The notes beneath the pieces are model-generated. The model saw only the letters and a program-made list of their open reading frames with translations, did no database searches and was not told the origin of the DNA. From NCBI GenBank assembly GCA_012729555.1, contig JAAYCX010000075.1, forward strand, positions 1 to 64,000: a stretch of 64,000 nt of DNA, written 5' to 3'. Positions within the stretch are counted from its first letter, which is position 1. Each line of letters starts with the position of its first letter. The position numbers and the translations under genes were made by a program. This DNA comes from Acidobacteriota bacterium (lineage in GTDB: Bacteria; Acidobacteriota; UBA6911). Of this stretch, positions 30,663-41,823 are shown one piece after another.

Positions 30663-30839
30663 AAGCACCTCCGTAAAGCGGGGTTTCTGGGGTTTTTAAC
30701 CCAGACATGATTAATATACACCATCCGCGGAGCGAACACAACCGGCTCCCTCCCCTCCCCCGGGCCGCTGCGGATTTCGTTGCGCGCCACGGGTGTTTGT
30801 GGCACCCTTGCGGCCGTACCGGACGGGAGGAGGCGCATC

Positions 30840-31868
30840 ATGAAGGAGGCCGAATGGAACACGCTGCTCGCGGTCGTGCGCGGTGAGGAGCCGGCGCGGA
30901 TCCCCGTGGGCTTCATCATCGACAGCCCCTGGCTCCCCAACTGGGCGGGGCACGCGATCCTCGACTACTTCACCGACGAGCGGGCGTTTCTCGACGCCAA
31001 CCTGAAGGCGCTCGAGACCTTTCCCGGGGCGATGATGCTCCCCGGCTTCTGGTCCGAGTACGGGATGTGCACCGAGCCGTCCGCCTTCGGCGCCGTATCG
31101 GTGTGGGAGGAGGACGCCTTCCCCTTCGCCCGAAGAACGCTCGCCGCGCCCCGGGACGTCGAGCGCCTGGAGCGGCCCGATGCGCGCCGGGAGGGGCTGC
31201 TCCCCTTCGTGATCCAGCGCCTCAGGCACCTCGAACCCGAAATCGTGAAGGCGGGGCACCGCATCCGCTTCGCGGTGGCGCGCGGGCCGCTCAACATAGC
31301 GAGCTTCCTCATGGGGACGACCGAGTTTCTGACCGCGCTCCGGACCGACCCGGAGCTCATGCACCGGCTGCTCGATGTCGTCACCGGCTTTCTCGTGGAC
31401 TGGATCGAATGGCAGCGGGAGTGCTTCCCCTCGATCGACGGGATCCTGCTCCTGGACGACATCGTGGGGTTCGTCGGCCGGGACGATTTCGAGCGGTTCG
31501 CCCTTCCCCGCCTCGCCCGCGCGTTCGACGCCGGCGTCGCGGTGAAGTTCTTCCACAACGACGCCCCTTCGAAGGCCTCGGCCCCCCTGCTCGCAGACGC
31601 GGGGATCAACCTGCTCAATTTCGGGGTGCAGCACACCCTGGAGGAGATGAGGGAATGGACCGGGGGCAAAGTGGCGCTGGTCGGCAATCTCCCCCCGCGC
31701 GACGTCCTCGCCGCGGGGACCCCGGAGGAGGTGGCGCGCGCCGCCACGGAGATGTTCGGCGCGCTCCGCGACCGGTCGCGCCTCGTGGCCTCCTGCGGCG
31801 GGGGGATGCCCCCCGGCGCGCCGACCGAAAACATCCGCGCCTTCATCGACGCCGTCGCCCGGCTGTAA
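30840..31868 (+). CDS. Uroporphyrinogen decarboxylase-fold protein, probable methyltransferase-type
   Basis: 342 aa with the UroD/MtaA barrel. True HemE signature residues are not evident, and a zinc-type His-x-Cys is replaced by FFHNDAPS, although the later Cys is kept (VASCGGG). Members of this branch are cobalamin-dependent methyltransferase relatives that move methyl groups from small substrates to corrinoid or folate. The gene sits convergently with metF, which fits a C1 role but does not prove it. The start is at ATG 30840 after GGGAGGAGG. Confidence 0.75.
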   Translation: MKEAEWNTLLAVVRGEEPARIPVGFIIDSPWLPNWAGHAILDYFTDERAFLDANLKALETFPGAMMLPGFWSEYGMCTEPSAFGAVSVWEEDAFPFARRTLAAPRDVERLERPDARREGLLPFVIQRLRHLEPEIVKAGHRIRFAVARGPLNIASFLMGTTEFLTALRTDPELMHRLLDVVTGFLVDWIEWQRECFPSIDGILLLDDIVGFVGRDDFERFALPRLARAFDAGVAVKFFHNDAPSKASAPLLADAGINLLNFGVQHTLEEMREWTGGKVALVGNLPPRDVLAAGTPEEVARAATEMFGALRDRSRLVASCGGGMPPGAPTENIRAFIDAVARL

Positions 31869-31919: not shown

Positions 31920-32825
31920 TCAGCGCACCCCGGCCTCTTTCACGATCTCGGGGACCGACTCCTCCCACTCGATCGCCATGATGTGGACCCCGCGGACCCC
32001 GGGGATTTCCCGGAGCTGCCGCACGGTCTCCACCGCGATGCGGATCCCCTCCCCGGCCTGCTTGTCCCTCGGCACCCCCTTGACCCGGGCGATGACGGCC
32101 TCGGGCACGTCCATCCCCGCCACATGGGTGGCCATGTACTCGAGCATGGCGGCGCTCCGGGCCGGGGTGATCCCGGCAAGGATGTGGGTGGCGGTGTCGA
32201 GTCCGCGCTCCCGGACGTCATTCATCCATTCCTTAAACTTTTCAATGTTAAATACACATTGAGTTTGAATAAATTCAGCTCCGGCCGCGACCTTTTTGGC
32301 CAGGCGCGGGACCTGGATCTTGGCCGGGTCGGCGAAGGGGTTGGCCGAGGCGCCGATGAAGAGTTCGAGTTTTCCCTCGAGCGCCTTCCCCCCCGCGAAG
32401 AGCGACGCGTCCCGCATCTCCCGGGCGACCTTCACCAGCTGGATCGAATCGAGGTCGAACACGTTCTTGGCCTGCGGGTGGTCGCCGAAGCTCTGGTGGT
32501 CCCCCGTCAGGCAGAGGAGGTTGGGGATCCCGAGGGCGGCCGCCCCCAGGATGTCGCTCTGGGCCGCGATCCGGTTGCGGTCCCGGCACACCATCTGCAT
32601 GACGGGCTCCACCCCCTCCTCGGAGAGGATGCGGCAGGCGGCCATACTCGCCATCCGCACCACGCTCGTCTGGTTGTCGGTGACGTTGCAGGCGTCGACG
32701 CTCCCCTTGAGGAGGCGCGCCTTCCGCCGCACCGCCTCGGCGTCCGGCCCCCGCGGGGGACCCGCTTCCGCGGTCACGGCGAATTTCCCTGCTTCCAGTA
32801 CGGACTGCAGCCTGCTTGGACTCAT
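31920..32825 (-). CDS. metF: Methylenetetrahydrofolate reductase
   Basis: 301 aa TIM-barrel flavoprotein reducing methylene-THF to methyl-THF. Recognisable phrases are TAEAGPPRG near the start (substrate-binding Glu region), NLLCLTGDHQSFGDHPQAK, and AEFIQTQCVFNIEKF. It is the last gene of a leftward operon and follows the metV-like gene by 19 bases. MetF next to MetV is typical of anaerobes, where MetV connects MetF to other electron carriers. A roughly 60-base stretch (32218-32282) uses AT-ending codons unlike the rest. Confidence 0.92.
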   Translation of the reverse strand: MSPSRLQSVLEAGKFAVTAEAGPPRGPDAEAVRRKARLLKGSVDACNVTDNQTSVVRMASMAACRILSEEGVEPVMQMVCRDRNRIAAQSDILGAAALGIPNLLCLTGDHQSFGDHPQAKNVFDLDSIQLVKVAREMRDASLFAGGKALEGKLELFIGASANPFADPAKIQVPRLAKKVAAGAEFIQTQCVFNIEKFKEWMNDVRERGLDTATHILAGITPARSAAMLEYMATHVAGMDVPEAVIARVKGVPRDKQAGEGIRIAVETVRQLREIPGVRGVHIMAIEWEESVPEIVKEAGVR

Positions 32826-32844
32826 GAGCTTTCCCCCGACAATT

Positions 32845-33510
32845 CTATTGGAGATCCTTGCGGATCAGCTTGCGCGGACCGCCGTCCCGTGATTTGGACC
32901 AGTCGGCCGGGGGCTGGATGACGTCGTACTGGTCCAGCCGCCCCAGCGCCTCCAGCCGGTCGACGATGAGGTTCCAGGCGCAGGGGATTTCGGGATCGAC
33001 TTCGCACTTGCCGTCGCGCGATCCCCCGCAGGGCCCGTTCATCAGGCTCTTCGAGCAGCGCGTGACCGGGCAGATCCCGCCCGTCACGAACAGCTTGCAG
33101 TCGCCGCAGGCCTGGCAGCGCTCCCCCCACTCCCCTTTGCGCTCCACGGCGCCGATGAAGTTGGTGTCGAGCGCCGGGAACACCTCACGGCCCTGGGCAT
33201 GCTCGGCCACGAGCTGAACGCCGGCGCCGCACGCCATCGAAAGGACGGCGTCGTGCTCCCCCGCCAGGGCGAGCAGTTCGGGCAGGAATTCCGGGTCGCA
33301 CTGCCGCTCGACGGTGATCTTCGTGATCCGGAAAGGGCGCCCCCGCCTCTTCCCCGCCAGGTCCAGGATCCGGGCGAGCATGTCGACCTCCTTCTGCCCC
33401 CCCGCGTTGCAGACCGTGACGCAGCCGTTGCAGCCGGCGATCAGGATGCGTTCGCGCTCGGCCAGGTAATCCAGGATGGTCTCGATCGGTTTCCAATCCC
33501 CTACAATCAT
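32845..33510 (-). CDS. metV: MetV-like zinc/Fe-S protein (methylene-THF reductase C-terminal domain)
   Basis: 221 aa. An N-terminal Cys-containing segment (LIAGCNGCVTVCNAGGQKE) and a C-terminal cysteine-rich domain (CQACGDCKLFVTGGICPVTR, then CGGSRDGKC). This is the MTHFR_C/MetV family that partners MetF in acetogens and other anaerobes and carries [4Fe-4S] clusters. It lies between larA and metF in the same leftward unit. Confidence 0.88.
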   Translation of the reverse strand: MIVGDWKPIETILDYLAERERILIAGCNGCVTVCNAGGQKEVDMLARILDLAGKRRGRPFRITKITVERQCDPEFLPELLALAGEHDAVLSMACGAGVQLVAEHAQGREVFPALDTNFIGAVERKGEWGERCQACGDCKLFVTGGICPVTRCSKSLMNGPCGGSRDGKCEVDPEIPCAWNLIVDRLEALGRLDQYDVIQPPADWSKSRDGGPRKLIRKDLQ

Positions 33511-33514
33511 GTCT

Positions 33515-34777
33515 CTACCTCCTTGCCTGGTCCCGGACGACGGGGATGGTCAGGCTCCCGTCCATCAGCACGAGGACCGAAGCGTCCGGCCCCTTCTCCC
33601 CGAGGGCGGCGTCCACGGCCTCCTGGAGCCCGGCGAACGGGCGGATGAACACGCTCTCCAAAAACGCCGGGTCCAGGTCGGTCACCGCCCAGACCTGGGC
33701 CCAGAGCCCGATCTCGGCCATCTTGGCCGCCTTGTGATAGCCCAGGACGAAGCCTTCCTCGATGCGCCGGAGCGCGTCCGCGGGCGAACTGGCCGACCCG
33801 AGCAGGCGGGCGAACGATTCGTCCCCGATCCCCATGCGGCACTTGGCCACCAGGAGCAGGATCCCCCCCTCCTTGAGCGCGTACTTGGCGTTGTCGATCC
33901 CCTTCTGGGCCTGGTACAGGTCGATGTCGGAGGGGAACTTCGCCACCGAGATCACGATATCGGCCTTGCGGGGGATTTCGGCGACGAAGACCTCGTTGGC
34001 CCGGGCGACCGCGGGTTCGAGTGAGCCGTAGATGTCGCCGGCCACGGCGGCGTAGATCCGGTGGTCCCGGTCGAGCACCGTGTTGATGGCGAAGATCTCC
34101 TTCTTGACCGTCGAGAGGGCGTCGATCATGTCCTCGTGGACCGGGTTCCCCTCCAGCCGCAGCGCCGAGGCCTCCCGCCTGAGCGCCAGCTTGTGGTTCT
34201 GCTCGATCGTGTCGAAGGCGGCGATCCCGGGGAGGAACGATTTGCGCCCCCCGGTGTAGCCGGCGAAGTAGTGGGGCTCCACCGAGCTGATGATGAGGAT
34301 GCGGTCCGCCTCCACCCCGCGGCGGTTGACCCTCATCTCGGTCCCGTTCTTCGAGGTCCCCAGGTGGACCATCTCCTCGCTCCTGCGGGCGTCGTGCACG
34401 AAGATGCGGTCGCGGTACCGGGCGTAGTGCCGCTCGGAGAAAATCTGCACGTACTCCTCGGGCGTCGGCGCCCGGTGGGCGCCCGTGGCCACGATGAAGC
34501 TGACCTCCAGGCCGGCCAGTTCGGGCTCGAGGTAATCGAGCACCCGCGCCGTCGGCGTCGGCCGGGTCGGGTCGTTGACGATGACGAGGACGTCCCGGGC
34601 GCCGGCCAGAAACGCGCGGACTCCCGCCGAGCCGACCGGGTGCTCGAGCGCCCGGCGGATCACCTCCCCCTCGTCCCCGATCGGGACGCGGTTCGGTTCG
34701 ATGATCCCCTCGATGCGCGCCTCGTCGATGGCGGCCTCGAGATATCCCTCCTTCCCGTAGGGCAGCCGCAGTTTCAT
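33515..34777 (-). CDS. larA: LarA-like nickel-dependent racemase/epimerase
   Basis: 420 aa. The residues that hold the nickel-pincer cofactor in Lactobacillus LarA have counterparts: His101 (GAHRAPTPEEY), His169 (EPHYFAGY), Lys179 (GGRKSFLPG, cofactor attachment) and His195 (EQNHKLAL), with the same spacing for the last three. It probably interconverts D- and L-2-hydroxyacids. The cofactor genes larB, larC and larE are not in the window. The start overlaps the preceding Fe-S gene (ATGA), tying it to the GlcD-type dehydrogenase. Confidence 0.85.
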   Translation of the reverse strand: MKLRLPYGKEGYLEAAIDEARIEGIIEPNRVPIGDEGEVIRRALEHPVGSAGVRAFLAGARDVLVIVNDPTRPTPTARVLDYLEPELAGLEVSFIVATGAHRAPTPEEYVQIFSERHYARYRDRIFVHDARRSEEMVHLGTSKNGTEMRVNRRGVEADRILIISSVEPHYFAGYTGGRKSFLPGIAAFDTIEQNHKLALRREASALRLEGNPVHEDMIDALSTVKKEIFAINTVLDRDHRIYAAVAGDIYGSLEPAVARANEVFVAEIPRKADIVISVAKFPSDIDLYQAQKGIDNAKYALKEGGILLLVAKCRMGIGDESFARLLGSASSPADALRRIEEGFVLGYHKAAKMAEIGLWAQVWAVTDLDPAFLESVFIRPFAGLQEAVDAALGEKGPDASVLVLMDGSLTIPVVRDQARR

Positions 34778-35730
34778 GCCTCGCTCCTTACCAGCAGCGG
34801 GCCCAGGGCCCGGACATCCTTCATGAAAGCCTGGGTCGCCTCCAGGAACTTCTTGGGGTTCCCCTGCGCGACCTCGGCCACCTGCACGCGCCCGGGGTCG
34901 ACCCCGATCGCCGCCAGCGGCTTCAGGAGAGCCTCCAGGCGCGCCTTCACCCGCGGGCTCCCCCCGTGCTCGCAGTCCTCCTCCGGGCAGGAGACGACCA
35001 GCACCCCCCAGGCGCCGGCGTCCAGGGTCGACAGGATGGTTTCCGAGCGGATCCGGCCGCTGCAGACCGTCACCAGCACCTTGTACTCGGCCGACGCGGC
35101 ATCGGGCTCGTAGCTGGCCGTCTGCATCCCCGGGTAGTTGGACCAGCCGCAGGAGAAGACGACGGCCTTGGCCTCCGGGTTGCGCCCGTCGGCGAAAAAC
35201 GCCGCCACCTCCCGGTCGAGTTCGTCGGGGTTGGTGCCGAAGCCGCGCCCGATCGTGACCCCCTGCTTGGGGCAGATGTCGAGGCAGCTGCCGCAGGACT
35301 GGCATTTCAGCAGGTCGGTCACGATCCGGCCGTCCACGAAACTGCGCGCCTCGTGCTTGCACATCCGGACGCAGTTCAGGCAGAGGGCGCAGACGTCGGT
35401 GTCGGTCCGGGAAGTGGTGCCGGGGACCTCGAACCCCGCCTCGACGAGGAGTTCCCGGGCGTCCTGGTAGACGTCCTGGATCGGGACCCCGGAGGAACAC
35501 GCCTTCTGGCAGCGGCCGCAGTGGAAACACTCCATCAGCTTGCCCGCCACGTACTCCGACGGTTCGATCTCCCCGCTCAGCAGGCCGTAGAGCAGGATCA
35601 GCTTCCCCCGCGGGCTGTCGATCTCCCACCGGGTGGATTTGTAGATCGGGCAGTGCTCGTAGCAGTAGCCGCAGCGGATGCACTTGTTGAGCGCGCCCTT
35701 CCATTTTTCCAGTTTGCCCATATCGCCCAT
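34774..35730 (-). CDS. Fusion of two dicluster ferredoxin domains and an MvhD-type domain
   Basis: 318 aa. Four CX2CX2CX3C motifs: Cys17-27 (CIRCGYCYEHC), Cys68-78 (CFHCGRCQKAC), Cys114-124 (CALCLNCVRMC), Cys143-153 (CQSCGSCLDIC), each able to hold a [4Fe-4S]. The first pair resembles HdrC/GlpC. Residues about 188-318 match the delta subunit MvhD/FrhD with four Cys for a [2Fe-2S] (Cys194, 223, 248, 253). In methanogens and acetogens MvhD couples hydrogenase or MetFV to Hdr. Here it follows a GlcD flavoprotein by 12 bases and could carry its electrons onward. Confidence 0.88.
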   Translation of the reverse strand: MGDMGKLEKWKGALNKCIRCGYCYEHCPIYKSTRWEIDSPRGKLILLYGLLSGEIEPSEYVAGKLMECFHCGRCQKACSSGVPIQDVYQDARELLVEAGFEVPGTTSRTDTDVCALCLNCVRMCKHEARSFVDGRIVTDLLKCQSCGSCLDICPKQGVTIGRGFGTNPDELDREVAAFFADGRNPEAKAVVFSCGWSNYPGMQTASYEPDAASAEYKVLVTVCSGRIRSETILSTLDAGAWGVLVVSCPEEDCEHGGSPRVKARLEALLKPLAAIGVDPGRVQVAEVAQGNPKKFLEATQAFMKDVRALGPLLVRSEA

Positions 35731-35742
35731 GTTCGCCCCCGC

Positions 35743-37173
35743 CTACGATTTCTGATAGCGCAAATGCGTCTCGCCGACCCAGTCGTCCGGGCCGTCCATC
35801 AGCTTGCCCGGGTTCATGATGTTGTTCGGGTCGAACACCTTCTTGATGCCCCGCATCAGGTCGAGCACCGCCGCCTTCTCGCGCCTGAAGGCCCCGGCCT
35901 TGCTGAGCCCGATCCCGTGTTCGGCCGAAGTGGTCCCGCCGACCGACAGGACGTATTCGTAAATCTCCTTGACCGCCTGCCGGGCGCCCTCCCACTGCGT
36001 CCCCTTCTCCGTGTCCATCAGGATCTTCGTGTGCATGCACCCGGCGCCGCAGTGGCCGTACGCCGTCATGACCAGGCCGTTGCGCTCGGCGATCTCGTGG
36101 ATCTTGTTGGCGGTCTCGGCCATCTTGGAAAAGGGCACCGCCATGTCGTCGGCCAGCGACGTCGAGGCCAGGCGCTCGTCGTACTTCGAAAGCGAGGGGA
36201 AGAGCTTGGAGCGGGCGGCGAAGATCCGCGCACGCTCCTTCTCGTCGTAGCTGAACTCGAGGCCGAAGCCGTTGTGGCGCTCGCAGATGGTGCGGAATCT
36301 TTCGATCTCGGGATCGATCGTCTCCTTCGCCATGCCGTCGGCCTCGAACAGCAGGATGGCCTCGACCTCCGGGAGCCCGAGGTTCTCCGCCTTGTTGGCG
36401 GCCGTGATCGCCACCTTGTCCACCAGCTCGAGCATCGACGGCTGGCACCCGCTCCCCATGATTTCACTGATGGCGTCCCCCGCTTCCCCGAGCACGTTGA
36501 ACATGGCGATCCCGAGGCAGCGGAGCTTGGGGATGGGTACGAAGCGCAGGGTGGCCTCGACGATGACGCCCAGGGTCCCCTCCGAGCCCACCATGAGGCG
36601 TTCGAGCGGGTAGCCGCTCGCCGCCACCCGCGTGGTCGCCCCGAGCGAAACCAGCTCCCCGCCGGCCAGGACCACCTTCATCGCGAGGATGGCGTCGCGC
36701 GCCGCCCCGTACTTGACCGAACGGGTGCCGGAGGCGTTGTTGGCGATCTCCCCGCCGATCGTGGCCACCACGCTCGAGGCGGGGGTCGGGGGGTAGAAGA
36801 CCCCGTGGGGCTTCAGCGCCTTGTTCAGGTCGTCGTCGACCACCCCCGGCTCCACCCGGCAGTAGCCGTCCTGCGGGTTGATCTCCAGGATCCGGTTCAT
36901 CGCCTTCATGTCCAGGATGATGCCCCCCCGGACGGGAACGGCCTGGCCGCACATGCCGGAGCCGGAGCCGCGCGGGATCACCGGGATCCGCTCCTCGTCG
37001 GCGTAGCGCAGCAGCTGCTGCACCTGTTCGGTGTTCCGCGGGCGGACGATGGCGTGCGGCGTTCCCTCGTGCACGCTCGAATCGGAGCCGTAGACGTAGA
37101 GATCGGCCGGGTCGGAGAGGACGCCGCCCTCCCCGACGATGGCTTTCAGTTTCTCAAAGTTGATGTCACTCAT
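35743..37173 (-). CDS. FAD-linked 2-hydroxyacid dehydrogenase (GlcD / D-lactate dehydrogenase type)
   Basis: 476 aa. An N-terminal PCMH FAD-binding domain (VIPRGSGSGMCGQAVP; GGEIANNASGTRSVKYG) and the FAD-oxidase C-terminal domain (TAYGHCGAGCMHTKI; TTSAEHGIGLSKAGAF). It oxidises D-lactate, glycolate or a related 2-hydroxyacid. As the first gene of the five-gene leftward operon it probably feeds electrons to the Fe-S/MvhD fusion protein, with LarA adjusting the stereochemistry of the substrate. The 207-base gap upstream (37174-37380) shows no clear promoter to my eye. Confidence 0.9.
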   Translation of the reverse strand: MSDINFEKLKAIVGEGGVLSDPADLYVYGSDSSVHEGTPHAIVRPRNTEQVQQLLRYADEERIPVIPRGSGSGMCGQAVPVRGGIILDMKAMNRILEINPQDGYCRVEPGVVDDDLNKALKPHGVFYPPTPASSVVATIGGEIANNASGTRSVKYGAARDAILAMKVVLAGGELVSLGATTRVAASGYPLERLMVGSEGTLGVIVEATLRFVPIPKLRCLGIAMFNVLGEAGDAISEIMGSGCQPSMLELVDKVAITAANKAENLGLPEVEAILLFEADGMAKETIDPEIERFRTICERHNGFGLEFSYDEKERARIFAARSKLFPSLSKYDERLASTSLADDMAVPFSKMAETANKIHEIAERNGLVMTAYGHCGAGCMHTKILMDTEKGTQWEGARQAVKEIYEYVLSVGGTTSAEHGIGLSKAGAFRREKAAVLDLMRGIKKVFDPNNIMNPGKLMDGPDDWVGETHLRYQKS

Positions 37174-38406: not shown

Positions 38407-38865
38407 ATGCCTTACTGGTTTGACGGCAACAACCTGATCGGGCAATCGGCGGCGGCGGCGGCCGCCGACCCGCGCCCGCGGCGGGAGTTCCTGGCGGCGC
38501 TGGCCGCCTATCGCCGGGCGGGCGGGGGCCGCCTGCTGGTCTTCTTCGACGGGGACGACCCCGGGCGGTCGGACCTCCCCCCGGGGGTCGCCGTGCGTTA
38601 CGCCGCACCCGAATCGGCCGACGCGGCCATCCTCCGGCGCCTCGGCGAAGCCTCCCGCCCCGCCGAAGTCACCGTCGTCACCAACGACCTGGAGCTTCGC
38701 GCCCGCTGCCGCCGCGCCGGCGCCCCGACCCTCGACTGGCGGGAGTTCGCCGCGAGGATGCGCCTTCGTTCAAGCCGCCCCGGCCGTACCCGGAAGCGCC
38801 CGGAGGAGGCGGTCGACGTGGCGGAGTGGATGCGGTGGTTCGGCCTCGACGGCGGGGAGGGCTAG
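38407..38865 (+). CDS. YacP-like NYN-domain (PIN-fold) nuclease
   Basis: 152 aa. It opens with YWFDGNNLIGQ (catalytic Asp of the NYN fold), with further acidic motifs LLVFFDGDD, ESADAAILRRL and TVVTNDLELRARCRRAG. YacP (Rae1 in Bacillus) is a ribosome-associated endoribonuclease. The C-terminus is shorter than Bacillus YacP by about 20 residues. The start ATG follows the repeat cluster by about 20 bases. Confidence 0.82.
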   Translation: MPYWFDGNNLIGQSAAAAAADPRPRREFLAALAAYRRAGGGRLLVFFDGDDPGRSDLPPGVAVRYAAPESADAAILRRLGEASRPAEVTVVTNDLELRARCRRAGAPTLDWREFAARMRLRSSRPGRTRKRPEEAVDVAEWMRWFGLDGGEG

Positions 38866-38874
38866 GCCGCCCCA

Positions 38875-38903
38875 GGCCGCCGTGGTTTCGGCGCCTTTTT
38901 TTT
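38875..38903 (+). terminator. Intrinsic terminator after the NYN gene
   Basis: A 7-bp GC stem with one bulged C (38875-38882 with 38889-38895) and a 6-base loop, followed by eight T (38896-38903). It begins ten bases after the stop codon. Confidence 0.72.
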
Positions 38904-38954
38904 GATAGACTTCTCCCGGTTGCGCGGACCCTTACCCCTACTGCGTCGGGATCT

Positions 38955-40793
38955 ATGGAACAGACATCGAAGAGCCGTAACACCGCTTCCGTCGTCAACG
39001 ATTTCAGCCTCCAGATCGCCACGGTGAACGGCTCCGGGAGCCAGTCGGCCAACGCGATCCTGATGCGGGCGATCTTCCGCATGGGGATCCCGGTCAGCGG
39101 CAAGAACATCTTCCCCTCCAACATCTCGGGACTCCCCACCTGGTACGCCATCCGGGTGAGCGAGCGGGGCTACGCCGCCCGCAAGGCCGGCATCGACATC
39201 GCCGTCGCCCTCAACCCCCACTCGGCGCGCGAGGACGCGCTCGCGGTCAGCCCGGGAGGGGTGCTGCTCGCGGAATCGGCCCTGGGCCTGGGCAGGCTGC
39301 GCGACGACATCCACTGCTACGAAGTCCCCTTCGCCCGGCTGGCGGAGGAGGTCACCGGCAACTTCCGGCTCCGCGCGCTCCTGGCCAACATGGTTTACGT
39401 GGGAGCCCTCACCCGTCTCCTCTCCATCGACACCGCCGAGGTGGAAGCGGCCATCCGGCGGCAGTTCCCGGACAAGGCCGGGGCCGTCGATCTCAACCTT
39501 CGGGCGCTCGAGGCGGGACGCTCCCATGCCGAGCGCCACCTGGAAAAGAGAGACCCCTTCCGCCTCGAGCCGCGCACCCTCACCCGGGGCCGGATCCTCA
39601 TCGACGGCAACGGCGCGGCGGCGCTGGGGGCGATGTTCGGGGGATGCACCGTGGCCTCGTGGTACCCCATCACCCCCTCCACCTCCCTGATGGAACAGCT
39701 GCAGGGGTTCCTGCGCGAGTTCCGGACCGATCCCCGCACGGGGAAAGCGTCGTTCGCCGTCATCCAGGCCGAGGACGAAATGGCGGCCCTCGGCATGGTC
39801 GTGGGAGCGGGGTGGGCGGGCGCCCGCGCCATGACCGCGACCTCCGGTCCCGGCGTCTCCCTGATGACCGAGTTTTCCGGCCTGGCCTATTTCGCCGAAA
39901 TCCCCGCCGTCCTCTGGGACGTCCAGCGCCTGGGACCCTCCACGGGCCTCCCCACCCGCACGAGCCAGGGGGACCTGCTCTCCTGCTACTTTCTCGGCCA
40001 CGGCGACACGCGCCATATCCTCCTCCTGCCGGCCACCCCGGGGGAGTGCTTCGATTTCGCCCAGCAGGCGCTGAACCTGGCCGAGCGCTTCCAGACCCCC
40101 GTCATCTGCATGAGCGACCTGGACCTGGGGATGAACGACTGGGTCGCGGAGGAGTTCCCCTACCCCGACCACATCCCGCTGGATCGCGGCAAGGTACTCC
40201 GGGAGCCGGACCTGGAGGCGATGGCCGACTTCGCCCGCTACCTCGACAGCGACGGGGACGGGGTCTGCCCCCGCACCCTGCCCGGGAACCGGCACCCGGG
40301 CGCCCCCTATTTCACCCGCGGGAGCGGCCACAACCCGAAGGCCGAATACAGCGAACGGCCCGGGGACTACGCCCGGCTCATGGAGCGCCTCGCGCGCAAG
40401 ATCCGGGGAGCCGTCCCCTCCCTCCCCCCCCCGGTCATCGCCGACGGCGCGGGGGGCCCCGTCGGCATCGTCTCCTGGGGCTCCACGCACGCGGCGGTGG
40501 AGGAGGCGCGCGACCGGCTGCGGGAGGAGCATGGCGTCGAAACGGGATACCTGCGCCTGCGCTCCCTGCCGCCCGGGGAGGACACAGCCCGCTTTCTCGA
40601 GCGCCACGAGAGGGTGTACGTGGTGGAACAGAACCGGGACGGGCAGATGCGGGCGATCCTGCAGATCGAATTCCCGGCGGCCGCCGCCCGCCTGCGGTCC
40701 GTCCTTCACTGCGACGGCGTCCCGGCCGACGCGGCCTCGATCGCCGGATCGATCCTGGAAGGGGAAAGGAAAGGGGAAGACCATGTCGCCTGA
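38955..40793 (+). CDS. korA: 2-oxoacid:ferredoxin oxidoreductase, gamma-alpha fusion subunit
   Basis: 612 aa from ATG 38955. The N-terminal gamma domain is shown by NGSGSQSANAILMRAIFRMG and the alpha pyrimidine-binding domain by GNGAAALGAMFGGCTVASWY and AEDEMAALGMVVGAGWAGAR. It oxidatively decarboxylates 2-oxoglutarate or a related acid to acyl-CoA with ferredoxin as acceptor. The gene overlaps korB by 11 bases. Substrate could be 2-oxoglutarate, a branched-chain or an aromatic 2-oxoacid; the two-subunit form is most often Kor. Confidence 0.88.
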   Translation: MEQTSKSRNTASVVNDFSLQIATVNGSGSQSANAILMRAIFRMGIPVSGKNIFPSNISGLPTWYAIRVSERGYAARKAGIDIAVALNPHSAREDALAVSPGGVLLAESALGLGRLRDDIHCYEVPFARLAEEVTGNFRLRALLANMVYVGALTRLLSIDTAEVEAAIRRQFPDKAGAVDLNLRALEAGRSHAERHLEKRDPFRLEPRTLTRGRILIDGNGAAALGAMFGGCTVASWYPITPSTSLMEQLQGFLREFRTDPRTGKASFAVIQAEDEMAALGMVVGAGWAGARAMTATSGPGVSLMTEFSGLAYFAEIPAVLWDVQRLGPSTGLPTRTSQGDLLSCYFLGHGDTRHILLLPATPGECFDFAQQALNLAERFQTPVICMSDLDLGMNDWVAEEFPYPDHIPLDRGKVLREPDLEAMADFARYLDSDGDGVCPRTLPGNRHPGAPYFTRGSGHNPKAEYSERPGDYARLMERLARKIRGAVPSLPPPVIADGAGGPVGIVSWGSTHAAVEEARDRLREEHGVETGYLRLRSLPPGEDTARFLERHERVYVVEQNRDGQMRAILQIEFPAAAARLRSVLHCDGVPADAASIAGSILEGERKGEDHVA

Positions 40794-41823
40794 CAAACCG
40801 CGCCCCGGGGCGCCGAACCGCGCCGGCCTGACGATCGAAGCCTACAAGGGGCGCCCGTCCACCCTGTGCAACGGCTGCGGCCACGACGCCATATCGAACC
40901 AGCTCGTCCGCGCCTTCTACGAGTACGGGATCGACCCGGCGGAGGTGGTCAAATTTTCCGGCATCGGGTGCAGCTCGAAGACCCCGGCCTATTTCCTGGG
41001 ACGCTCCTTCGGCTTCAACGCCATCCACGGCCGGATGCCCTCGGTGGCCACCGGCGCGCTCGTGGCCAACCGCCGCCTGAAGGGGCTGGCCGTAAGCGGC
41101 GACGGCGACACGGCCTCGATCGGGATCGGTCAGTTCGTGCACGCCATGCGCCGCAACATCCCCCTCGTCTACATCCTCGAAAACAACGGCGTCTACGGGC
41201 TGACCAAGGGGCAGTTTTCGGCTACGGCCGACCGGGGCTCGCGCCGGAAGGGGGGGGAGGCCAACGAACTCCCCCCCGTCGACTGCTGCGCCCTGGCGAT
41301 CGAACTCGGGTGCGGCTATGTCGCCCGCTCCTTCGCGGGGGACCCCAAGCAGCTCTCGGCGCTCCTGAAGGGGGCTTTGGGCCACCGGGGGACCGCCTTC
41401 ATCGACGTGCTCTCCCCCTGCGTCACCTTCAACAACCACGAGGGGTCGACCAAGAGCTACCCCTACCTGAAGGGGGCGGAGGAGTGGCTGCACGATGTGG
41501 GCTTCATCCCCTATTTCGAGCAGATCGCGGTGGATTACGCCGACGGGACCACGAGGGAGATCGCGCTCCACGACGGCTCCCGGCTCACGCTGCGCAAGCT
41601 CGAACGGGAGTACGACCCGACCGACCGGGCCGGGGCGCTCGCGAAGCTCCGCGCGTCGTCGGAAGAGGGGACGTTCCTGACGGGACTCTTCTACATCGAC
41701 GGCCGGAAACCGGACATCACGGAACTCCTCGACCTCGACGACGAACCCCTGGCGGCCCTCCCACCGGAAAAGCTGCGCCCCTCCCGCGCCGCGTTCGAAG
41801 AGATCCTGGCGCGGCTCAGGTAG
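40783..41823 (+). CDS. korB: 2-oxoacid:ferredoxin oxidoreductase beta subunit (TPP-binding)
   Basis: 346 aa from ATG 40783. Cys in LCNGCGHD and GIGCSSKTPAYF contributes the proximal cluster, and the TPP-binding motif is GDGDTASIGIGQFVHAMRRN with ENNGVYGLTKGQ. It pairs with the upstream gamma-alpha subunit. The C-terminal 50 residues are a typical extension of the Kor beta family. Confidence 0.9.
   Translation: MSPDKPRPGAPNRAGLTIEAYKGRPSTLCNGCGHDAISNQLVRAFYEYGIDPAEVVKFSGIGCSSKTPAYFLGRSFGFNAIHGRMPSVATGALVANRRLKGLAVSGDGDTASIGIGQFVHAMRRNIPLVYILENNGVYGLTKGQFSATADRGSRRKGGEANELPPVDCCALAIELGCGYVARSFAGDPKQLSALLKGALGHRGTAFIDVLSPCVTFNNHEGSTKSYPYLKGAEEWLHDVGFIPYFEQIAVDYADGTTREIALHDGSRLTLRKLEREYDPTDRAGALAKLRASSEEGTFLTGLFYIDGRKPDITELLDLDDEPLAALPPEKLRPSRAAFEEILARLR

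Follow-up and report, generated by a model that had tools for sequence, protein, structure and literature searches.

A five-gene operon of an Acidobacteriota bacterium that may couple 2-hydroxyacid oxidation to methylene-tetrahydrofolate reduction

The present study concerns a stretch of 64,000 nucleotides from an Acidobacteriota bacterium (assembly GCA_012729555.1, contig JAAYCX010000075.1, positions 1 to 64,000), called the window here, and in it five leftward genes on the minus strand (37173-31920) in the order glcD-fusion-larA-metV-metF. They code for a flavoprotein dehydrogenase, an iron-sulphur (Fe-S) protein fused to MvhD, a racemase and the two subunits of a methylene-tetrahydrofolate (methylene-THF) reductase. 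It is proposed that the operon specifies a soluble 2-hydroxyacid:methylene-THF oxidoreductase, a fifth type of MetVF reductase with a dedicated racemase, most likely fed by malate, and we put the probability of this reading at slightly under one half (about 0.48). LarA would convert the L form into the D form and back, its substrate, a 2-hydroxy-dicarboxylate, being most probably malate. GlcD, using FAD and a bound metal, would then oxidise the D form, giving oxaloacetate from D-malate. Electrons would run from there through the five clusters of the fusion protein, two of them GlcF-type [4Fe-4S], two HdrA-type [4Fe-4S] and one the [2Fe-2S] of MvhD, and on to MetV and then to the flavin of MetF, and MetF would reduce methylene-THF to methyl-THF. 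Gene order, conservation, domain make-up, cluster ligands and the grouping of the operon MetVs come from the sequence itself; a complex with direct contact between the proteins, the substrate and the direction are inferred.

The route from GlcD through the fusion protein to MetV and MetF is reasonable because of the chimeric build of the fusion protein. The CxxCxxCxxxC motif occurs in it four times (at residues 17, 68, 114 and 143), and the MvhD part has four more cysteines (194, 223, 248 and 253). All of these cluster cysteines are conserved in a nine-member alignment, in line with the five clusters of the original prediction, which was made from the DNA letters alone. Residues 14-103 match the N-termini of the two GlcF proteins of the same genome (34-41% identity, E ~3e-13), residues 91-160 the C-terminus of its HdrA (35% identity) and residues 217-311 its MvhD (27% identity), while residues 91-311 match positions 556-773 of 777 in the HdrA2 model (E 3e-31). 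By these matches the protein is a natural chimera of a GlcF N-terminal dicluster, an HdrA C-terminal dicluster and MvhD. It had been described as an HdrC-MvhD fusion; the MvhD part of that description stands, and the HdrC part is better replaced by the two diclusters named above. HdrC as the source of the N-terminus was rejected, as the HdrC-like protein of the genome matched at E 0.02 against E 3e-13 for the N-terminus of its own GlcF. In a fold search of the PDB with an AlphaFold2 model of the fusion, the MvhD domain was the sole confident recovery, the last third of the model matching MvhD from Hdr complexes of known structure (5odc_D, E 3e-8; 8rvu_F). The protein would join a GlcF piece that would meet GlcD to an Hdr piece carrying electrons to or from MetV, so that GlcD would have, instead of its usual partner GlcF, the portion of the Hdr system that contacts MetVF. 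Neither an HdrA Rossmann/FAD domain nor an HdrB/GlcF CCG domain was found by Pfam among the five operon genes, so that an operon without HdrA or HdrB, as first described, is confirmed. EtfAB-type partners were found neither among the operon genes nor among their immediate neighbours.

The five genes also occur together in relatives, which the original prediction had named as one of two points on which it could fail. The host genome (G000, a 3.83 Mb assembly, 98.9% complete) was examined through family searches and stretches that were read. G000-G009 are ten sampled genomes of one Acidobacteriota genus, G396 is a Syntrophorhabdaceae metagenome-assembled genome (MAG) and G397 is a MAG deposited as Deltaproteobacteria. 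Within the genus seven of the ten genomes carry the fusion, and none of the 386 others sampled from the Acidobacteriota phylum does. Among 395 genomes from the phylum to which G396 belongs it was found in one, G396 itself (18 other, weaker matches there cover the HdrA/MvhD-like part alone), and among 195 from that of G397 it was found in 4. The carriers are anaerobes that have not been cultured. The full five-gene order was observed in G000, G004, G006, G007 and G008, at least five species of one genus, and in G795 from a second phylum. Blocks interrupted by contig edges were found in G799 (fusion-larA-metV-metF, cut at the edge) and in G001 (larA-metV-metF, beginning at the edge), and G396 has glcD-fusion-larA-metV with metF absent from the locus. 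The proteins of G795 fall to 54-74% identity with those of the window, and the flanks vary, with a LepA-like gene in G795, unrelated genes in G007 and oxaloacetate enzymes in G396. The ratio of non-synonymous to synonymous substitution rates (dN/dS) of all five genes against G004 and G006 is 0.10-0.20. As the order is held across two phyla with differing flanks and dN/dS is this low, the operon is not a chance arrangement, and because identity falls and the neighbouring genes change, selection explains the retention of the block better than recent common descent.

It should be noted that G002, G005, G397 and G792 carry glcD-fusion-larA at the locus without metVF. MetVF is therefore dispensable in some members and the core is glcD-fusion-larA. 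It could be possible that this core oxidises a 2-hydroxyacid while its MvhD joins a distinct HdrA complex (one that may bifurcate or confurcate electrons), MetVF being another client of the MvhD pool. The genome check for hdrA that had been suggested did find HdrA and MvhD genes elsewhere, away from the operon, and HdrA is the known partner of MvhD, as in the PDB matches. However, MetV of the operon type clusters with the core in different phyla, and G396 has kept it despite the loss of metF. In a tree of GlcD, fusion and LarA the G002/G005 pair, which groups with G000/G004/G006 at support 100, falls within the Acidobacteriota that carry metVF, hence loss of metVF in these two is the simpler reading, and both retain another metVF that could act in trans. 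The MetV proteins of the operons cluster across phyla, apart from the MetVs that lie beside HdrA in the same genomes (support 68, or 97 without G795), and the operon MetV of G396 is sister to those of the Acidobacteriota (support 74). Beyond the closest relatives, operon MetVs are 62-70% identical to the MetV of the window, against 48-52% for paralogues within the genome. On these moderate supports MetV has probably travelled together with the core. In G005 a gene for formyl-THF synthetase (FTHFS; L017:5469-7304) is the divergent neighbour of the operon, about 1.2 kb upstream of glcD, which ties the core once again to folate one-carbon (C1) chemistry. Docking on a separate HdrA complex is considered rather unlikely, although it is the rival that survives best.

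The malate-fed reductase would join two couples that lie close together. The oxaloacetate/malate couple stands at about -170 mV, and lower still in cells that contain little oxaloacetate. The methylene/methyl-THF couple stands at -200 mV (PMC8760232). As the two potentials are similar, bifurcation is unneeded and transfer is feasible in either direction. The alternative that the system runs in reverse, already allowed for in the first description, is thus feasible on energetic grounds: methyl-THF would be oxidised by MetF/MetV, GlcD would reduce oxaloacetate to D-malate and LarA would convert this to L-malate for fumarate reduction. Acetyl-CoA synthase (CdhC/AcsB) was detected neither in G000 nor in seven more members of its genus, so methyl-THF would not be fed to acetyl-CoA in the host, and FTHFS, present in G000, could carry C1 units onwards. 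On the other hand, characterised enzymes of the GlcD family are dehydrogenases, and no feature of the sequence fixes the direction. Reverse running is therefore regarded as improbable. Acetyl-CoA synthase is present in G005, G007, G396 and G397. Standard acetogenesis by the Wood-Ljungdahl pathway was rejected for the host, since no CdhC/AcsB was detected in its 98.9% complete genome.

The original prediction took lactate as the electron source and LarA as a lactate racemase, and it is on the substrate that it is revised most. In its favour LctD and D-lactate dehydrogenase are among the relatives of GlcD, and LarA does belong to a superfamily that includes lactate racemase. However, the nearest solved chain to LarA is the malate racemase Mar2, and its best NCBIfam match is LarAH6 malate racemase. 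At the positions of W358/T359 of LarA1 malate racemases have H or Q followed by K and lactate racemases W followed by E or Q (PMC11770544), and a GHK motif has been described for malate racemases (PMC7583248). The LarA of the window has H348-K349 there; its four selectivity positions read Y, F, H, K instead of the F, F, W, E/Q of lactate racemases. Its loop Y170-F171 resembles that of 2-hydroxyglutarate racemases, and the substrate may be a related dicarboxylate. As regards the nickel-pincer-nucleotide cofactor, the suggested check for larBCE was covered for LarC and LarE, and both are present in G000. LarC was found in 11 of 12 genomes (a search set without G792, G795 and G799), and LarE scored above cut-off in 14 of 15; G009, the one genome without both, is also without the module. 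The operon LarA is the sole one found in G006.

GlcD points in the same direction. Its nearest solved relatives are glycolate oxidase (9qgz), LctD and mouse LDHD. The H, C, C, H and K of its metal-binding motif are invariant in the nine-member alignment (G795 has GHCGSGCMHTK), and the GlcF-linked GlcD paralogues of G000 have GHAGDGN at the same place. R321, H374, H381, E418 and H419 are also invariant, so that the catalytic set R, H, H, E, H is kept (roles of the residues after PMC7801405). The invariant K383, two residues past the second metal histidine, takes the position of N443 of D-2-hydroxyglutarate dehydrogenase (D-2-HGDH) and I407 of mouse LDHD, as set by motif spacing and pairwise alignment and not by structure. 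N443 binds the second carboxylate group of 2-hydroxyglutarate, and I407 belongs to a hydrophobic pocket (PMC7801405, PMC10589216). Y372 is shared with D-2-HGDH Y432. In addition, the divergent genes next to the operon of G396 code for an oxaloacetate decarboxylase alpha/pyruvate carboxylase B-type protein and a malic enzyme, and DctM/DctP TRAP genes come after them. Because the H-K pair of LarA, a lysine where lactate-type LDHD has a hydrophobic residue and these malate/oxaloacetate neighbours agree, malate is favoured and is probably the substrate rather than lactate; a lactate-fed system is held to be less probable still than the reverse reaction.

That the five enzymes are only co-transcribed and share no electron path is very improbable: by itself, the MetVF of other organisms can accept electrons from ferredoxin in vitro (PMC8760232), but the fusion has no other evident role and, lacking the GlcF CCG and HdrA flavin domains, it joins both interfaces.

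Some observations speak against a malate:methylene-THF oxidoreductase. As MetVF is missing from the locus in the four genomes named above, and metF in G396, the MetVF encoded in cis cannot be the sole acceptor. GlcD has Ala at the position of D-2-HGDH K401, so the call of malate rests partly on one substitute lysine. The LarAH6 match of LarA reaches 385.8 bits, below the cut-off of 500, and the model of the fusion is of modest confidence (predicted local distance difference test score, pLDDT, 69; predicted template modelling score, pTM, 0.59). As the host genome is without a detected acetyl-CoA synthase, a large need for methyl-THF is unexplained. What survives of the proposed complex is the passage of 2-hydroxyacid electrons to methylene-THF, which the conserved unit and the chimeric build support; the lactate part does not survive, and MetVF is not universal. 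The narrower claim of a non-bifurcating malate (2-hydroxy-dicarboxylate):methylene-THF oxidoreductase of five proteins, with a chimeric GlcF-HdrA-MvhD link, no nucleotide or ferredoxin carrier and a distribution across phyla, is accordingly put forward only tentatively.

Table 1. Genes, domains and motifs of the operon (positions are those of the window)
Feature	Position	Strand	Description
glcD	35743..37173	-	476 aa (amino acids), FAD-dependent D-2-hydroxyacid dehydrogenase (VAO/PCMH family); Pfam PF01565 (FAD_binding_4) + PF02913 (FAD-oxidase_C)
Fe-S/MvhD fusion	34774..35730	-	318 aa, putative electron adaptor; Pfam Fer4_8 + Fer4 + FlpD
larA	33515..34777	-	420 aa, nickel-pincer-nucleotide 2-hydroxyacid racemase, malate-racemase-like; Lar_N + LarA_C
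metV	32845..33510	-	221 aa, Fe-S subunit of MetVF methylene-THF reductase; PF12225 (DUF5981, MetV C-terminus) 126 bits
metF	31920..32825	-	301 aa, flavin subunit of methylene-THF reductase; PF02219 (MTHFR) 147.6 bits
Fusion domain 1	35485..35691	-	GlcF-type N-terminal 2x[4Fe-4S] dicluster, residues 14-82; Fer4_8
Fusion domain 2	35260..35403	-	HdrA C-terminal-type 2x[4Fe-4S] ferredoxin, residues 110-157
Fusion domain 3	34801..35163	-	MvhD/FlpD, residues 190-310, 4 conserved Cys; PF02662 90 bits (cut-off 22.3)
GlcD motif GHCGAGCMHTK	36025..36057	-	H374, H381 metal ligands; C375, C379, K383 distinctive
LarA H348-K349	33731..33736	-	Malate-racemase signature (LarA1 W358/T359 positions); invariant in nine-member alignment

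The coordinates and Pfam matches agree with the first description of five adjacent leftward genes with gaps of 4-19 bases or an overlap; from glcD to metF the spacings are 12, -4, 4 and 19 nt, the start of larA at 34777 giving a 4 nt overlap with the fusion gene. An MTHFR-domain MetF lies next to a DUF5981 MetV, with PF02219 and PF12225 above cut-off, as in MetVF-type reductases, and the cysteines of MetV are conserved. A scan for promoters and terminators gave no signal above chance. On the plus strand a URO-D/MtaA-CmuA-type methyltransferase-like gene (30780-31868) converges on metF. It was rejected as a sixth member, because among the relatives read it occupies this position in G004 only. 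Genes for the alpha (gamma-alpha fused) and beta subunits of a 2-oxoacid:acceptor oxidoreductase (38826-41823, plus strand) point away from the operon, and they were not counted as part of the system, being on the other strand and past prmA. Among the relatives, the locus of G005 has a 200-aa open frame between the fusion gene and larA (L017:10974-11576). Near the core module of G002 lies a 1156-aa frame with NuoG-like [2Fe-2S], GltD-like and group A [FeFe]-hydrogenase domains (L018:1553-5023). In the Syntrophorhabdaceae genome the mercury methylation genes hgcA and hgcB (L026:11754-13086) lie just downstream of glcD-fusion-larA-metV with one TauE-type gene between; both are above the NCBIfam cut-off and the NVWCAAGK motif is present.

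The host genome has further loci of these families. Tight linkage of hdrA or etfAB to GlcD elsewhere would have counted against the proposed link; in the stretches read neither was found beside the other two GlcDs of G000 (contigs 42 and 21), which adjoin ordinary CCG-bearing GlcF genes. On contig 42 the GlcD-GlcF pair is followed by a gene of the malate/L-lactate dehydrogenase family (Ldh_2), a second 2-hydroxyacid locus (L157:6022-9856). The other metVF of G000 sits with HdrA, a GltD-like domain and MvhD. A metV without adjacent metF was observed on contig 10 of G000 (L021:3200-8620), with similar loci in G001, G003, G005, G007, G008 and G009. These MetVs form their own clade, and HdrA/MvhD-type genes lie alongside in several of these genomes, which suggests a possible role of MetV as adaptor for further complexes. 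Contig 90 of G000 codes for a 658-aa protein with an MTHFR-like region and the MetV C-terminal domain (L022:7324-9300), and long open frames of this kind around the DUF5981 match are found in most genomes of the genus.

The natural donor of MetVF reductases is disputed, as ferredoxin works in vitro and has been argued to be energetically impossible on H2 + CO2 growth (PMC8760232). No description of a set of GlcD, MvhD fusion, LarA and MetVF was found in the open-access literature searched, in keeping with the view that no complex of this composition had been described. The closest known systems each share a part of it. Like the type IV MetVF-HdrCBA-MvhD of Moorella thermoacetica (PMC8760232), the operon has MetV, MetF, an MvhD domain (PF02662, four Cys) and an HdrA-type C-terminal dicluster as entry to MetV, but the HdrA flavin subunit, HdrB and a separate HdrC are absent from the cluster, and the input is a GlcD flavoprotein instead of an NADH-oxidising HdrA. 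The type III MetVF-RnfC2 of Acetobacterium woodii (PMC8760232) likewise has a dedicated input subunit in the cluster with no bifurcation shown; its input is the NADH-oxidising RnfC2, whereas that of the operon is a 2-hydroxyacid dehydrogenase. With the GlcDEF/GlcDF glycolate or D-lactate oxidases the operon shares the GlcD fold, the catalytic residues and a GlcF-like N-terminal dicluster partner, but the fusion has HdrA-C and MvhD in place of the two CCG domains that the true GlcFs of the genome carry, GlcE is absent, and GHCG[AS]GC stands where those enzymes have GHxGDGN. The bifurcating lactate dehydrogenase LctBCD of A. woodii (7qh2) has a GlcD-type subunit, LctD, and EtfAB-type LctBC where the operon has the Fe-S/MvhD adaptor. 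The GlcD-HdrD pairs of Archaeoglobi and others (PMC6474303) also link a GlcD-type flavoprotein to an Hdr-type Fe-S protein, but as described their HdrD has CCG domains, and MvhD, LarA and MetVF are not part of them. The malate racemases Mar1/Mar2 (LarAH5/LarAH6; PMC7583248, PMC11770544) share catalytic and cofactor residues and the H-K pair with the operon LarA, which differs from Mar2 in its loop (Y-F against Y-K), its score below the NCBIfam cut-off and its place in a redox operon. Hence the operon should not be filed as type IV, GlcDF or LctBCD; it would work like a type III/IV enzyme with a different input. If the reading is true, it adds an undescribed electron donor for MetVF-type methylene-THF reductase, parts of the Hdr/MvhD system are recombined into adaptors that link unrelated enzymes, and the oxidation of malate, a C4 acid, can be tied to folate C1 chemistry with no need for NADH. 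As the operon points to a candidate donor enzyme and includes a one-protein wire, it makes the donor question of MetVF directly testable.

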